This document shows, in pieces, positions 33,280-38,596 of a DNA stretch of 64,000 bases. The stretch spans positions 1 to 64,000 of the forward strand of contig JAQBQD010000161.1 in the NCBI GenBank assembly GCA_028287185.1, read 5' to 3'. The stretch's first letter is position 1, and each line of letters begins with the position of its first letter. The position numbers were made by a program, and so were the translations under genes. Source of the stretch: Gemmatimonadota bacterium. Lineage in GTDB: Bacteria > Gemmatimonadota > Gemmatimonadetes > Longimicrobiales > Longimicrobiaceae. The notes under the pieces were generated by a model that saw only the letters and a list, made by a program, of their open reading frames with translations, searched no databases and had not been told where the DNA came from.

Positions 33280-34191
33280 CTATCGTGCCCGCGGACTCGA
33301 CGGACTCGACGGACTCGACGGACTCGACGGACTCGACGGACTCGACGGACTCGACGGACTCGACGGATTCGCTGGAGACGGCGGGCTCGACGGATTCGGC
33401 TGTGACGGCGGACTCGGCCGTGGCGCGGGCTGCATGTGCCAGCCGTCGGCGGCGCGGCGCAGGAGCATGGCGGTTTCCGAGAAGCTGAACCCCGCGCGGT
33501 CGCTGACGCGGCGGGTGAAGCGGATGGACGACGGCGTGATCCAGATGGGATCGGCCGGGTCCCACGGCGCGTCCCGCGGCGGGGCGAAGGTCCACTCGCG
33601 CACGGCCCCCCCACCCTCGAAGCGCCAGACGGAGATCTCGCTGGCCGCCGCCTTCCGCTCGCCCGCCTGCGATGCCTCCACGAAGCGCTGGCCGTCGGGC
33701 GAGACGACCGGCTCGCCGTCCACCACCGCGCGCGCTCCGGACGCCGCGTCCACGATCAGGAAGCCGCCGCCATCCGCGTACGCCAGCTCCACCACGTATA
33801 CGTTCGCGCGGGGCACGTAGTCGCGGAACACGAAGTCCACGGCCTTCGCGCCCGCGCTGTCGGCGGCGGCGGAGCGCGTGCCGGCAGCATCGGTCAGCGT
33901 CAGCCCACGGCCGCTGTCCAGCCGCACCGACAGGTCCCTGCCCGTGCGGCGCACGCGGTCGGGCCACGCATCGATCGCCCGGCTTTCGCGCCGCTGCCGG
34001 CAGGCGAACGCGTCCGGCTGCCCCGCGCAGGGATCGGGCGCCAGGCGCTGCGCGGCGGCGGCGACGGAGATGGGGGACGCGAGGAGCGCGGCGGCCGTGA
34101 GAATCCGTCGAATCCACCGCGGTGCGACCCTCGCCGCGGACTTCGAGGTCGATGCGGATCGGGTCGGCCGATGCGGACGCGAGACGTTCAT
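33280..34191 (-). CDS. Exported hypothetical protein with C-terminal (Ser-Ser-Pro)n tail
   Basis: 303 residues. A basic start (SRPHRPTRSASTSKSAARVA) precedes the signal segment ILTAAALLASPISVAAAAQ near residue 30-48. The mature domain has CAGQPDAFACRQRR (two Cys), VYVVELAYADGGGFLIVD, VVSPDGQRFVEAS, and WITPSSIRFTRRVSDRAGFSFSETAMLLRR. The last 45 residues are Pro/Ser repeats caused by a perfect 9-bp tandem repeat at 33293-33364. The ATG at 34191 overlaps the TGA of the upstream NRDE-family gene (ATGA). Function unknown. Confidence 0.7.
   Translation of the reverse strand: MNVSRPHRPTRSASTSKSAARVAPRWIRRILTAAALLASPISVAAAAQRLAPDPCAGQPDAFACRQRRESRAIDAWPDRVRRTGRDLSVRLDSGRGLTLTDAAGTRSAAADSAGAKAVDFVFRDYVPRANVYVVELAYADGGGFLIVDAASGARAVVDGEPVVSPDGQRFVEASQAGERKAAASEISVWRFEGGGAVREWTFAPPRDAPWDPADPIWITPSSIRFTRRVSDRAGFSFSETAMLLRRAADGWHMQPAPRPSPPSQPNPSSPPSPANPSSPSSPSSPSSPSSPSSPSSPSSPRAR
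33293..33364 (-). repeat. Perfect 9-bp tandem repeat, 8 units
   Basis: GGACTCGAC repeated eight times without a change, then degenerate units (GGATTCGCT). Read on the minus strand it is in frame and encodes Ser-Ser-Pro repeats, so copy-number change would alter tail length without a frameshift. Confidence 0.95.
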
Positions 34192-34985
34192 GCGATCACG
34201 ACGGAGGATGGGACGTGCGATGGAAGGTCGAGCATGAACCGCGACTCCTCCATCGCGTCCACCCCCGGGGTCACGCGGCGCTCGGCGAAGGTGGCGCGGC
34301 CTTCGTGCCGGACGATGAGCACCGTGGAGCAGCGGGTGCCGTACTGCGGCGTTGCGATGAAGGGCGCGGACAGCGCCCGCTCCCGCTCCAGTCCCACGCC
34401 CGTCTGGGGCAGCGCGGCGTCGGGCGCCACGCCGCGGTCCGCGAGGGCGGCGAAGAGGCGGGCCTCCAGCTCGTCGTCGGGACCGGCGAGGGCATCGGCC
34501 AGCGCCGCCTTGCCGCGCACCACCTTGGGCCAGGGATCGTCCAGCAGCGCGTTGCTCAGCCCGTAGACGCCCGGCGCCAGCACGCGCGGCCCGGCGCCGC
34601 GGTTGGAGACGTACGCCAGCGACGCGCCGTCGCCCACCAGCAGGTTGAAGCCGTTGTACGCATCTCCGTCCGCCGCCAGCTCCTCCGCGTAGGCGGCGGG
34701 GGACGCGAGCGAGCGCAGGAAGCCGGCGACCAGGTGCCCGCGCGAGCGCTTGCCGTCGCGGGACAGCGGCATCTCGCGGTAGTTGGTGACGGCGGCGAAG
34801 CGCCCGGCCCGCGTGACGCCCATCCACGTGCCGCCCTCGCGCAGGTCGCGGCCCGCGAGCACGTCCGGCGCATCGGCCCAGAAGCCGGCGGCGGCGGTGG
34901 GGCGGTCGTACAGCTCGTCGCGGTTGGCGGCGACCACCAGCGCATGCTGCGGGTGCGCGCGGTGGGCGAACAGGATCAGGCACAT
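34188..34985 (-). CDS. NRDE/TANGO2-family protein
   Basis: 265 residues. Starts MCLILFAHRAHPQHALVVAANRDELYDRP, the NRDE signature with Cys2, typical of Ntn-hydrolase-like proteins of the TANGO2 family. GGTWMGVTRAGRFAAVTNYR, GFNLLVGDG, YGLSNALLDDPWPKV and QYGTRCSTVLIV are also conserved family blocks. The biochemical role is unsettled (haem or lipid handling has been proposed for eukaryotic TANGO2). The ATG at 34985 is certain from the motif. It is the first gene of a two-gene unit with 33280. Confidence 0.92.
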   Translation of the reverse strand: MCLILFAHRAHPQHALVVAANRDELYDRPTAAAGFWADAPDVLAGRDLREGGTWMGVTRAGRFAAVTNYREMPLSRDGKRSRGHLVAGFLRSLASPAAYAEELAADGDAYNGFNLLVGDGASLAYVSNRGAGPRVLAPGVYGLSNALLDDPWPKVVRGKAALADALAGPDDELEARLFAALADRGVAPDAALPQTGVGLERERALSAPFIATPQYGTRCSTVLIVRHEGRATFAERRVTPGVDAMEESRFMLDLPSHVPSSVVIA

Positions 34986-35114
34986 GGGGGAGCCTCGCCC
35001 TCTGCCGGTGCGGTCCACGGGCGTCCGCGGAACGAGGGACGCCGCGCCACCAATCTACCGCCCCCCGGGCACCTGCGTCACCGCCGGTCGACTATGGGTC
35101 GGCGGACGCGCGAA

Positions 35115-35143
35115 GGGAGGCCCGGCGCGGTGCCGGACCTCCC
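35115..35143 (-). terminator. Terminator hairpin of the lanthipeptide precursor operon
   Basis: Stem GGGAGG-C-CCGGC / GCCGG-A-CCTCCC with loop GCGGT, 27 bp beyond the stop codon of the last precursor gene (35170) on the minus strand. Confidence 0.65.
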
Positions 35144-35169
35144 TGCGTGGTGCCTTCCGCCCGCCGGGC

Positions 35170-35367
35170 TCAGACGCAGCAGGCCTGCGTCTTGATGATG
35201 TCGAGCCCCTCGGCGCGCGGCTGCGCGCCGCAGGTGAAGCCGCAGCTGAGCTGCGGATAGACGGTGTATGCCTGGCCGTGCACGGTGCCGCGGCCGTCCT
35301 GCCCGGCGACGGTGGTGTCGAACGACTCCACGGACAGGCTTTCCAGCTCCAGGGTCAGCTTCTTCAT
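35170..35367 (-). CDS. Pinensin-like lanthipeptide precursor D (65 aa)
   Basis: Fourth and last gene of the precursor operon. The leader MKKLTLELESLSVESFDTT matches the pinensin-family pattern MKKL-L-LD-L-VE[ST]F-T. The R-GTV-G-A-Y boundary motif (GRGTVHGQAY) follows, and then a core of about 30 residues with Cys at CGFTCG and a C-terminal ACCV. AAGGAG lies eight bases before the ATG. Pinensins are class I lanthipeptides made by a LanB-type dehydratase and LanC cyclase. None is encoded in this window. Confidence 0.75.
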   Translation of the reverse strand: MKKLTLELESLSVESFDTTVAGQDGRGTVHGQAYTVYPQLSCGFTCGAQPRAEGLDIIKTQACCV

Positions 35368-35405
35368 CGTCCTGCTCCTTGTGGTGCGTGGGGTGGGCGG
35401 CGCCG

Positions 35406-35615
35406 CTACAGGCAGCACATCATGGGGCACGAGTTGCTGGCGAGGCCCTCGCCGCGCAGGTCCGTGGTCGCCGGCGGGTTGCCGATGGTGGGCGCGCAGT
35501 ACGCGGGATAGCTGTACTCCGCGCCGCGCACGGTGCCGCGCGCGAGGGCCGCGTCGGGCGAAGTGCGGAACGTCTCCACGGCCAGGTCGTCCAGGTGAAG
35601 CGCGAGCTTCTTCAT
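35406..35615 (-). CDS. Pinensin-like lanthipeptide precursor C (69 aa)
   Basis: Leader MKKLALHLDDLAVETFRTS, boundary ARGTVRGAEY, then a core that differs most from its siblings: APTIGNPPATTDLRGEGLAS, ending NSCPMMCCL. It has three Cys near the end plus one at YPAYC, and several Thr/Ser that could be dehydrated. GAGAGGAACC precedes the ATG. Only 38 bp separate its stop from the ATG of precursor D, so they are surely co-transcribed. Confidence 0.75.
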   Translation of the reverse strand: MKKLALHLDDLAVETFRTSPDAALARGTVRGAEYSYPAYCAPTIGNPPATTDLRGEGLASNSCPMMCCL

Positions 35616-35676
35616 GGTTCCTCTCACGTGTGGAGGTCTTTCCGGGACCGCGGCGGGAAGCCGCGGCGGACGGTCG

Positions 35677-35886
35677 TCACACGCAGCAGGGGCCGCCGAC
35701 GGAGTAGTCGTCGTGCGCCACCGTGCCGGGGGAGAGCACGATCCCGCAGGTGGGCAGGCACGACGCGCCGGGGCACGACTGCGTGGGATACGCGTTGCCC
35801 TGCACGGTGCCGCGGGAATGGGCCGCCGGTGCCGTGGCAAAGCTCTCCACCCGCAGGGCGTCCAGGTCCAGGCTCAGCTTCTTCAT
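35677..35886 (-). CDS. Pinensin-like lanthipeptide precursor B (69 aa)
   Basis: Leader MKKLSLDLDALRVESFATA, boundary SRGTVQGNAY, core starting PTQSCPGASCLPTCGI and ending GGPCCV. The S-C-P-G-x-S-C-x-x-T-C-G pattern is shared with precursor A and offers Ser/Thr-Cys pairs for (methyl)lanthionine rings. GAGGAG lies six bases before the ATG at 35886. 61 bp separate it from precursor C. Confidence 0.78.
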   Translation of the reverse strand: MKKLSLDLDALRVESFATAPAAHSRGTVQGNAYPTQSCPGASCLPTCGIVLSPGTVAHDDYSVGGPCCV

Positions 35887-35953
35887 GTGTGCTCCTCGTG
35901 GCCGAAACGGAAGCGCCGGCTGCCCTGGCGGGCGGCCGGCGCGGGGGGGTGGA

Positions 35954-36169
35954 TCAGACGCAGCAGTTGCCGATGTACGAGATGGGTGCCCGGTCGCCCG
36001 CGAAGTCCGGCGAGATGGGGATGCCGCAGGTGCGGGCACACGACACGCCCGGACACGACTGCGTGTCGTACGCCTGCCCGCGCACCGTGCCGCGGGCCGC
36101 GAGCGACGGGGCGGCCGTCTCGAACGTCTCCACGCAAAGCGCGTCCAGGTCCAGGGCCAGTTTCTTCAT
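35954..36169 (-). CDS. Pinensin-like lanthipeptide precursor A (71 aa), first of the operon
   Basis: Leader MKKLALDLDALCVETFETA, boundary ARGTVRGQAY, core DTQSCPGVSCARTCGI then PISPDFAGDRAPISYIGN and a final CCV. The leader itself holds an extra Cys. AAGGAGGACGCG directly precedes the ATG, a strong ribosome-binding site. About 70 bp upstream the region becomes AT-richer (36320-36345), where the operon promoter probably lies, though no clear boxes are seen. The S41 protease gene upstream is on the same strand but is separated by a terminator at 36473. Confidence 0.78.
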   Translation of the reverse strand: MKKLALDLDALCVETFETAAPSLAARGTVRGQAYDTQSCPGVSCARTCGIPISPDFAGDRAPISYIGNCCV

Positions 36170-36472
36170 CGCGTCCTCCTTCGCTCCGGTGGGCGCCTCC
36201 GCGGGGGCGGAGGCGAGATGCGGGTGGCGTGCACCCGGGGACACCGCGGACACTGACATTTCGGTAAGGCGCGTACTACGCCCCGTGATCTCCGCACCGC
36301 CCGGCTGCGGGGCGCCGGATGATCACACTCCTAATCTATCGCAATCCGAAACGTCGTGAAAGGTACCTGCGCGAAGCGTGCCGGGTGGGTCGTGCCACCG
36401 CGACGGCAGGTGGCAGCGCGTTCGCCTGGAGGAGCGATCCGCGGGGCGGGCGTGGATCCCCGGAAAGCGAGA

Positions 36473-36501
36473 GGGGCGGGGACCTTGCCGGTCCCCGCCC
36501 C
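36473..36501 (-). terminator. Terminator hairpin after the S41 protease gene
   Basis: Perfect 12-bp stem GGGGCGGGGACC / GGTCCCCGCCCC with a 5-nt loop, 70 bp beyond the protease stop on the minus strand; it insulates the lanthipeptide operon. Confidence 0.75.
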
Positions 36502-36569
36502 CCTCCTCCTTCTCACCCTCGGTTCGATCGACCTGCCGCCTGCCGGCCTCCTGTCGATCTGCGCCCGGC

Positions 36570-38213
36570 TCAGTGCGTGGCGGGCCGGGTGGCGGCCGCG
36601 GCGCGCTGGGCGGGGCGGGCCGTCTCCGCGGCGGCGCGGACGAAGAGCGCCTGCTGCGTGGTCGCGCCCTGGAGCAGGTTCAGCGCGCGCCGCAGCTGCA
36701 CGTCCTGCGGGATGCCGCGGCGGAAGGCGGCCGAGTCGCCGAAGGCCACCGTCGCCAGCTTGTCCTCGAGCAGTCGGTCGATGAGCGGCGTCACGGCGTC
36801 GTACTGCTCGCGCTTGACGTTCACGCCGGCGGCCACCAGGCGCTGGAAGAAGGTGCTGCGCCACTCGGGGCGGACGGTGAAGCCCGGCGTGAGCGTGCCG
36901 CGAAGCTGCAGCGCGTAGTCGTTGAGCACGCGGTACGTCTGCTGGGCCTTGGGGGCCACGGCGGACATGAACTCCTTCTCGGCGCGGGTCAGGGTGTCGG
37001 GCCTCACCTCCACGTCGGGGGTGATGCCGCCGCCGCCGTAGACGGTGCGCCCCGCATCGGAGTGGAACACCGGCTTGCCCCTGACCGAGTCGGCGCGGAT
37101 GGTGGCGGTGTCCACCACCAGGCGGCCGTCGGCAAGCAGCTTGCGCGGGCGCTGGATGGTGCGGCCGCTGGGCGTGAACCACTTGCCCGTGGTGAGCTTG
37201 AGCGCCCACCCGCTGTCCAGGCGATACAGGTCCTGCACCAGCCCCTTGCCGAAGGTGGTCTGGCCCACGATGAGCGCGCGGTCGTGGTCCTGCAGCGAGC
37301 CCGCCACGATCTCGCTGGCCGAGGCGGCGTAGCCGTCCGTGAGCACCACCACCGGCTCGCCGGCGATGAGCGGGGCCTTGTCGGCCACGTACACGTCGTT
37401 GGGCTGGTTGCGGTAGCGCACGGTGGCGATCTGCTGGCCCTCGCGCAGGAACAGGTTGCTGATCTGCACCGACTGCTGCACGCTGCCGCCGCTGTTGCCG
37501 CGGATGTCCACCACGTACGAGCGAGCGCCACGGCCCTTCAGCTCGCGCAACGCCTGCTCCAGCTCTTCGCCGCTGGTGTTGCTGAACTGCTGCAGCGGCA
37601 CGTAGCCCACGCCGCCCGCCAGCATGAGCGTGTACGGCACCGCGGGCACGTGCACCGAGGCGCGGGCGAAGCGCGAGGTGATGGGCGTGGTGAGCCCGTA
37701 GCGCGCGAAGGTGACGGCCACGGTGGTGCCGGCCGGCCCCATCAGGTGGTCGGACACCTTGTCGATCTTCCAGCCGATGGCCGACTCGCCGTCGATGGAG
37801 ATGATCTTGTCGCCCGCCTGCACCCCGCCGCCGGCGGCCGGGGTGTTGGGGTAGACCTTCATGACCGTGACGGTGTCGCCCTGCTGCTCGATGAGCACGC
37901 CCAGGCCCCCGTACGAGCCGCGCAGCGACTCGCGAGAGAAGCTGGCCAGCTCCTCGGGCGAGAAGAGCTCGGCGTAGGGGTCGCCCAGGTTGCGCAGCAG
38001 GCCGCGGGCGGCGTGCGCGTACAGCGAGTCCTCGGCGACGGGTTCCACGGCGCGGTTCTGCACCAGGCTCATCACCTCCTGGAAGATGCGGGCGCCTTCG
38101 TCGCTGCCGTGCGAGCGCAGCACGAAGCCGCCGGCCACCACCGGCACCAGCGCCACGGCGGCCAGCGCCACCGCCTGCCGCTTCCAGGTCTTCAGGGTCA
38201 CGGGTCTCTTCAT
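36570..38213 (-). CDS. S41-family C-terminal processing peptidase (CtpA/tail-specific protease)
   Basis: 547 residues. N-terminal membrane anchor (AVALAAVALVPVVAGGFVL), a catalytic-associated helix region (DPYAELFSPEELASF), a PDZ domain at about residues 100-190 (GGLGVLIEQQGDTVTVMKVY, AGDKIISIDG), then the S41 protease core. There YVPLQQFSNTSGEELEQAL, VVDIRGNSGGS, TDGYAASASEIVAGSLQDH (catalytic Ser in SASEI) and TFGKGLVQ (catalytic Lys) are complete. Periplasmic protease that trims C-termini of non-polar proteins. AAGGAAGGA lies about 12 bases before the ATG at 38213. Its position upstream of the peptide array is suggestive but probably coincidental. Confidence 0.94.
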   Translation of the reverse strand: MKRPVTLKTWKRQAVALAAVALVPVVAGGFVLRSHGSDEGARIFQEVMSLVQNRAVEPVAEDSLYAHAARGLLRNLGDPYAELFSPEELASFSRESLRGSYGGLGVLIEQQGDTVTVMKVYPNTPAAGGGVQAGDKIISIDGESAIGWKIDKVSDHLMGPAGTTVAVTFARYGLTTPITSRFARASVHVPAVPYTLMLAGGVGYVPLQQFSNTSGEELEQALRELKGRGARSYVVDIRGNSGGSVQQSVQISNLFLREGQQIATVRYRNQPNDVYVADKAPLIAGEPVVVLTDGYAASASEIVAGSLQDHDRALIVGQTTFGKGLVQDLYRLDSGWALKLTTGKWFTPSGRTIQRPRKLLADGRLVVDTATIRADSVRGKPVFHSDAGRTVYGGGGITPDVEVRPDTLTRAEKEFMSAVAPKAQQTYRVLNDYALQLRGTLTPGFTVRPEWRSTFFQRLVAAGVNVKREQYDAVTPLIDRLLEDKLATVAFGDSAAFRRGIPQDVQLRRALNLLQGATTQQALFVRAAAETARPAQRAAAATRPATH

Positions 38214-38596
38214 GGTGATCGCGTCCTTCCTTGGATACCACGGAGGCGGCGAGGCGCACCGCTGCCGGATCGTTGCCGTCATGGGGAGCGGAGGCGGGTT
38301 CGCCGTCCGGTCCTGCTTGCTACCCTTGGGCCGCCCGCGCGTTCGGGCCCGCGCGCATCCCGGCAGCTTCCGGGCCGCGGCCCGCGCACGCGAAAGGATG
38401 CATACCCCACGCGAGCCCCGCCGGGTTCCACCTCCGCCGCGCCGCGGGACCGGACGCCGGAGGTCACGCCCGCCGCTCGCCCGGGGATTGACGACGTCGT
38501 CGGTACGAGCGTGAGCCGCGCCGGCTGTCGGATCCCGCTGCCGAGGCCTCGCCCGCAGCCGGCGAGGGGAGGTCGTTACGGCGCGGAAGTGGGGTC
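38214..38596. other. Intergenic region upstream of the S41 gene
   Basis: About 380 bp; should hold the S41 promoter. No gene or clear promoter pair is visible. It is followed by repeat A copy 2. Confidence 0.4.

Follow-up and report, generated by a model that had tools for sequence, protein, structure and literature searches.

Dispersed pinensin-type precursors in a Gemmatimonadota genome and a shared split LanB/LanC set that probably matures them in trans

How could four lanthipeptide precursor genes be of use at a place in the genome where no modification enzyme is encoded? The question is raised by the window analysed here, the whole 64,000-nucleotide stretch of a Gemmatimonadota contig (JAQBQD010000161.1). 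An earlier note, made from the letters alone, had described four minus-strand mini-genes of 65–71 codons lying 38–67 bp apart, and the ORF reading of the window (a simple gene caller being unreliable at this GC) confirms a minus-strand operon of four ORFs, with products of 71, 69, 69 and 65 aa and gaps, from first to last, of 67, 61 and 38 bp. All four start with ATG, and a Shine-Dalgarno-like sequence lies 5' of each, in keeping with the ribosome-binding sites already claimed for them. The operon and its immediate surroundings hold the following features.

36573..38405, minus strand: S41/Prc-type peptidase with PDZ domain, directly upstream of the operon (PF03572, 4.5e-48)
36463..36507 (approximate), minus strand: very strong GC hairpin with a 16-bp stem, separating precursor 1 from the S41 peptidase gene
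35954..36169, minus strand: precursor 1, the operon's first gene, 71 aa, core GQAYDTQSCPGVSCARTCGIPISP...GNCCV
35677..35886, minus strand: precursor 2, 69 aa, core GNAYPTQSCPGASCLPTCGIVLSP...GPCCV
35406..35615, minus strand: precursor 3, 69 aa, core GAEYSYPAYCAPTIGNPP...CPMMCCL
35170..35367, minus strand: precursor 4, 65 aa, core GQAYTVYPQLSCGFTCGAQP...TQACCV
35110..35144 (approximate), minus strand: GC-rich 13-bp hairpin, possible terminator, directly 3' of precursor 4
34191..34985, minus strand: TANGO2/NRDE-family protein, downstream of the operon (domain search)

The shared terminator that had been proposed is borne out only in part: the 13-bp GC hairpin does follow the last gene, but it lacks a proper T-run, the z-score of its fold is -1.95, and a simple terminator scan around the operon gave no match. 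The upstream hairpin (z -4.2, without a proper T-run) probably terminates the unit preceding the operon. A Sigma-70 promoter scan gave no match.

The full-length alignment of the four precursors contains 24 identical columns, most of them in the leader, which follows the pattern MKKL-L-L--L-VE[ST]F-T...RGTV-G and so agrees with the shared leader and R-GTV-G boundary read from the letters. The cores had been called quite different, and in part they do differ, but a common scaffold, C-x-x-T-[C/I]-G ... CC[V/L], runs through them: SC-x-x-TCG is present in three of the four and in a degenerate form in the remaining one, and CC[V/L] closes all four. This scaffold recurs in loci and arrays of other genera (G242, G285 and G307), and the window operon is therefore of a recurrent type, with cores less different than was first thought. 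Within the operon itself, pN/pS is noisy and uninformative.

LanB-N and LanC were sought on the window contig and neither was found, and no long frame of the window carries an ABC signature, so the reported absence of modification genes nearby holds, with an S41 peptidase adjoining. A role of this peptidase as the leader protease is unsupported, since it is absent beside all other leader loci fetched. Nor is the operon site conserved, as TANGO2 homologues in relatives have neither leader genes nor an S41 gene within about 1.5 kb. Elsewhere in the window, a 9-bp unit is repeated in tandem about 12 times near an ORF end (33292-33416), the frame deciding whether Ser/Pro or VES repeats are read.

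The four precursors are members of a large family within their own genome (G000: 6.04 Mb, 225 contigs, 93.8% complete). A tblastn search with precursor 2 at a loose cut-off returned 51 matches, a leader profile search at E<=0.001 returned 46, and an iterated search on fetched loci arrived at about 57 leader ORFs, spread over 34 contigs in some 42 loci; the few with the lowest scores, below about 15, are less secure. Because the leader recurs some 57 times, its likeness within the operon is not due to chance. A Shine-Dalgarno-like site precedes 53 of the 57 ORFs, compared with 12.7% of random ATGs. Two tandem arrays, L151 (C60:15573-16714) and L149 (C110:12411-13001), have divergent leaders without the GTV boundary, and in the former an ECTGCVSGCG-type core is nearly alike in several members. 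A tailoring gene common to the surroundings of the orphan loci was sought, but each neighbouring gene family was confined to three loci or fewer; among viral contigs, no relatives of precursor 2 were found.

The earlier assignment of the leader to the pinensin type has some support from profile search. The NCBIfam model NF038180 (leader_pinensin) matches 24 of 36 paralogues tested at E<=1, and among the scores listed, 27.3 exceeds the curated 24-bit cut-off. In the window, precursors 2 and 4 score 19.5 and 16.2 bits, under that cut-off, while the NCBIfam search gave no match for the other two ORFs.

Where, then, are the enzymes? The earlier note had allowed that they might be missing or that maturation might take an unusual route, a suggestion not supported by the genome-wide search, which found a complete split class I set on another contig, C200. 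On one strand it comprises the three enzyme genes listed below, two precursor genes whose leader is that of the window operon, an ABC exporter and an HlyD protein.

C200: LanB glutamylation protein, 1071 aa (PF04738, 4e-47)
C200: LanB elimination protein, a separate ORF, 323 aa (PF14028, 7.5e-47; TIGR03891)
C200: LanC, 673 aa (PF05147, 6.6e-55)

Glutamylation and elimination domains of LanB thus adjoin two leader genes, as in class I systems, and LanB is divided between two ORFs, a trait of the pinensin family. The LanC residues C291, C338 and H339 are invariant in seven homologues; such Cys and His residues are the established Zn ligands of LanC, and by sequence the protein is a stand-alone cyclase with an intact Zn site. 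Its closest NCBIfam model is the LanC half of LanM. In addition, it carries a C-terminal extension of about 235 aa (L039 6498-7205, minus strand) that is conserved across genomes at 44-53% identity, matches PqqD weakly in five of seven rows (best E 0.019) and NGO1945_C in four of seven (8e-4), and has a low-confidence structure model (pLDDT 62.5); against the PDB neither a sequence match nor a fold match was found. These weak matches hint at a leader-binding, RRE-like fold. Homologues of the C200 cluster are grouped together in relatives, including two from outside the family (G167 and G169). In both G000 and G285, the enzyme cluster adjoins NIF3, bactofilin, M23 and ParB genes (L039 13613-16799, minus strand), which suggests an old fixed chromosomal site. 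A GTDB contig scan with the LanB alignment returned a single named record, from a Gemmatimonadetes MAG (JAHWJJ010000021.1), and one with the LanC query gave no match.

The explanation we favour, at a probability of about 0.83, is that the orphan genes encode class I precursors of the pinensin type and that this one shared LanB/LanC/exporter set matures them in trans. Maturation in trans had already been named as one of two routes, and the presence of two same-leader precursors in an enzyme cluster on a different contig points the same way. In such a scheme, precursors would be produced at many dispersed genomic sites, and the conserved leader of about 30 aa would serve as a recognition tag bound by the C200 LanB and LanC. 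The single split LanB would dehydrate Ser/Thr in trans using glutamyl-tRNA, as is established class I chemistry, and LanC would then couple the dehydrated residues to Cys. The ABC/HlyD pair probably exports the products, and a protease would cut at about R-GTV-x-[GA] to release the core. Of the five C39 peptidase domains encoded in the genome, none is on C200; the exporter there lacks one and so does not account for leader removal. What the sequence shows is the ORFs, their shared leader and dispersion, the enzyme cluster, the co-occurrence described below and the composition of the cores; modification in trans, ring formation and export are what we infer. The combinatorial products envisaged for a four-core operon are better read as those of one enzyme set that would serve about 57 substrates with many different cores from some 42 loci, the operon being one of them.

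One may argue instead that the orphan peptides serve another enzyme, be it a LanB on contig C13, a LanM-like protein or some other RiPP enzyme, and that the C200 LanB/LanC are limited to their own two precursors. The genome does offer candidates: a second, different LanB-like gene on C13 (L040, 24075-25985), which has no such leader nearby and probably belongs to a separate RiPP system, and four further LanC matches, on C4, C75, C7 and elsewhere on C200. However, no convincing leader gene was found on C13, C4, C75 or C7, and one leader model describes cluster and orphan genes alike, with scores of 62.3 and 55.3 bits for the two C200 precursors and 53.8-60.2 for the four of the window, so that their leaders are indistinguishable. 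Moreover, a C200-type LanB is present in every leader genome examined, including two outside the family. We regard this alternative as unlikely and prefer the shared C200 set.

The co-occurrence across relatives can be put in numbers. Of 21 family genomes, the identical ten are marked by the leader profile and by LanB-N, an overlap with a chance of 2.8e-6 if genomes are taken as independent, shared ancestry being ignored. At the level of the phylum (298 genomes; LanB counted at E<=1e-20), leaders occur in eight genomes and a C200-type LanB in nine, LanB being present in 8/8 of the genomes with leaders and in 1/290 of the others. The ten positive family genomes have 1, 5, 11, 17, 46, 62, 79, 143 and, in two cases, at least 150 leader matches; counts are approximate because some assemblies are fragmented MAGs, and an assembly may include a contaminating contig. 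G250 has its only leader gene on the LanB contig, within roughly 1 kb of the LanB match, an arrangement that may be what the system looks like before expansion. The core of that precursor (L130) consists of an SCSGCTSC-type repeat.

The cores, defined by cutting at the GTV boundary, have a composition of their own. Cys hardly occurs in the leaders but accounts for about 14% of core residues, with up to 16 Cys in one core. Of 319 Cys, all but nine can be paired with a separate Ser/Thr on the N-terminal side, whereas in shuffled cores 68 (range 43-99) would be expected to go without one. In the cores of the window's genome, [ST]C occurs 142 times against 59 expected and [ST]x4C 115 times against 53, while no other [ST]-to-C spacing, as far as [ST]x5C, departs from its expected count; the excess of these two spacings is seen again in 65 members read from other genomes (224 versus 97 and 192 versus 88), although in both sets the counts include homologous cores and the draws are not independent. 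Together, the enriched spacings amount to [ST]C-x-x-[ST]C repeats. The cores carry Ser/Thr and Cys placed for ring formation, as expected at sequence level of class I substrates, and the pattern is compatible with (methyl)lanthionine rings that join Cys to a Ser/Thr on its N-terminal side, while any ring topology drawn for these cores would be a guess. The abundance of Cys, much of it adjoining another Cys or a Ser/Thr, could also bring to mind small exported peptides, rich in Cys, that have acquired a RiPP-like leader and form disulfides instead of thioether bridges; yet such peptides would leave unexplained both the co-occurrence with LanB and the strong excess of Ser/Thr N-terminal of Cys, and we consider them very improbable next to thioether-bridged products of the C200 enzymes.

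A family of this size could also consist mostly of decaying duplicates without function. Some members are short or divergent (on C60, C110 and C187), and in pairwise comparisons among paralogues within the genome, core pN is close to pS. Decay does not sit well with the open frames, with the Shine-Dalgarno sites retained 5' of nearly all members, or with a core scaffold common to arrays in other genera. Two between-genus orthologue pairs also speak against it (L088 and L095 against C82:29150 and C163:48566 of G000; genus g5), with core pN at 0.09 versus a pS of 0.32 in one pair and 0.15 versus 0.31 in the other. In these pairs pN is below pS, which argues for function and indicates that some products are conserved rather than simply diversifying; wholesale decay thus has hardly any probability in our judgement, and working precursors of the shared set are the reading we keep. 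Both orthologue pairs have very Cys-rich cores, with 16 and 13 Cys, kept between the two genera.

If this reading is true, a split LanB/LanC would be shown capable of promiscuity on dozens to more than 100 natural substrates, and a natural library of ringed peptides, with a promiscuous enzyme set to go with it, would be available for peptide engineering. Extreme substrate promiscuity among lanthipeptide enzymes is known from the class II LanM enzymes ProcM and SyncM. In the open-access literature searched, we found neither documentation of LanB/LanC promiscuity of such scale nor a prior description of such a dispersed class I system. It is tempting to go further and propose, tentatively and with more doubt than confidence, that among known natural class I lanthipeptide systems with one enzyme and many substrates, that of this Gemmatimonadota family is the largest: one or two split LanB/LanC sets would act on scattered precursors numbering up to 150 or more in a genome, and [ST]C-x-x-[ST]C ladder cores would yield chains of overlapping thioether rings of undescribed topology.

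How does the system compare with those already known? With nisin-type class I clusters it shares LanB/LanC chemistry and ABC export. Those clusters, however, are compact and combine a full-length LanB with a single precursor, whereas the present LanB is split and most of the substrates lie outside any cluster. Prochlorosins and synechococsins resemble the system in combining one enzyme system with many dispersed precursors, a conserved leader and divergent cores, a likeness that here is one of genomic arrangement only and that would make the system their class I counterpart. ProcM has 29 precursors and SyncM 79, each with one LanM (PMC10783134), whereas three relatives here have at least 143-150. 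In contrast to the Nif11-type leader and single class II LanM that define the prochlorosin family, we found an unrelated, pinensin-like leader with a class I split LanB and LanC, which places the system outside that family, and the Cys content here is apparently higher. Closer to the present host, the genome report of Longimicrobium terrae lists three lanthipeptide clusters and does not describe dispersed precursors (PMC7291104). Mining around LanC has used seven genes (Walker 2020, PMC7268733), and dispersed precursors would escape any genome mining restricted to LanC surroundings. The nearest relatives are the pinensins, class I lanthipeptides of Bacteroidota, whose LanB is split and whose precursor family is linked to LanM-like class I LanCs in Bacteroidetes (Walker 2020, PMC7268733). 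A pinensin-like leader with the GTV boundary, the split LanB and the LanM-like LanC are all found here, and on these grounds the system is placed with the pinensin-like class I lanthipeptides. In contrast to pinensins, its LanC bears the conserved extension described above (about 235 aa), and its precursors lie mostly far from the enzymes and number from dozens to at least 150; what is new relative to pinensins is the Gemmatimonadota host and the massive expansion of dispersed substrates.
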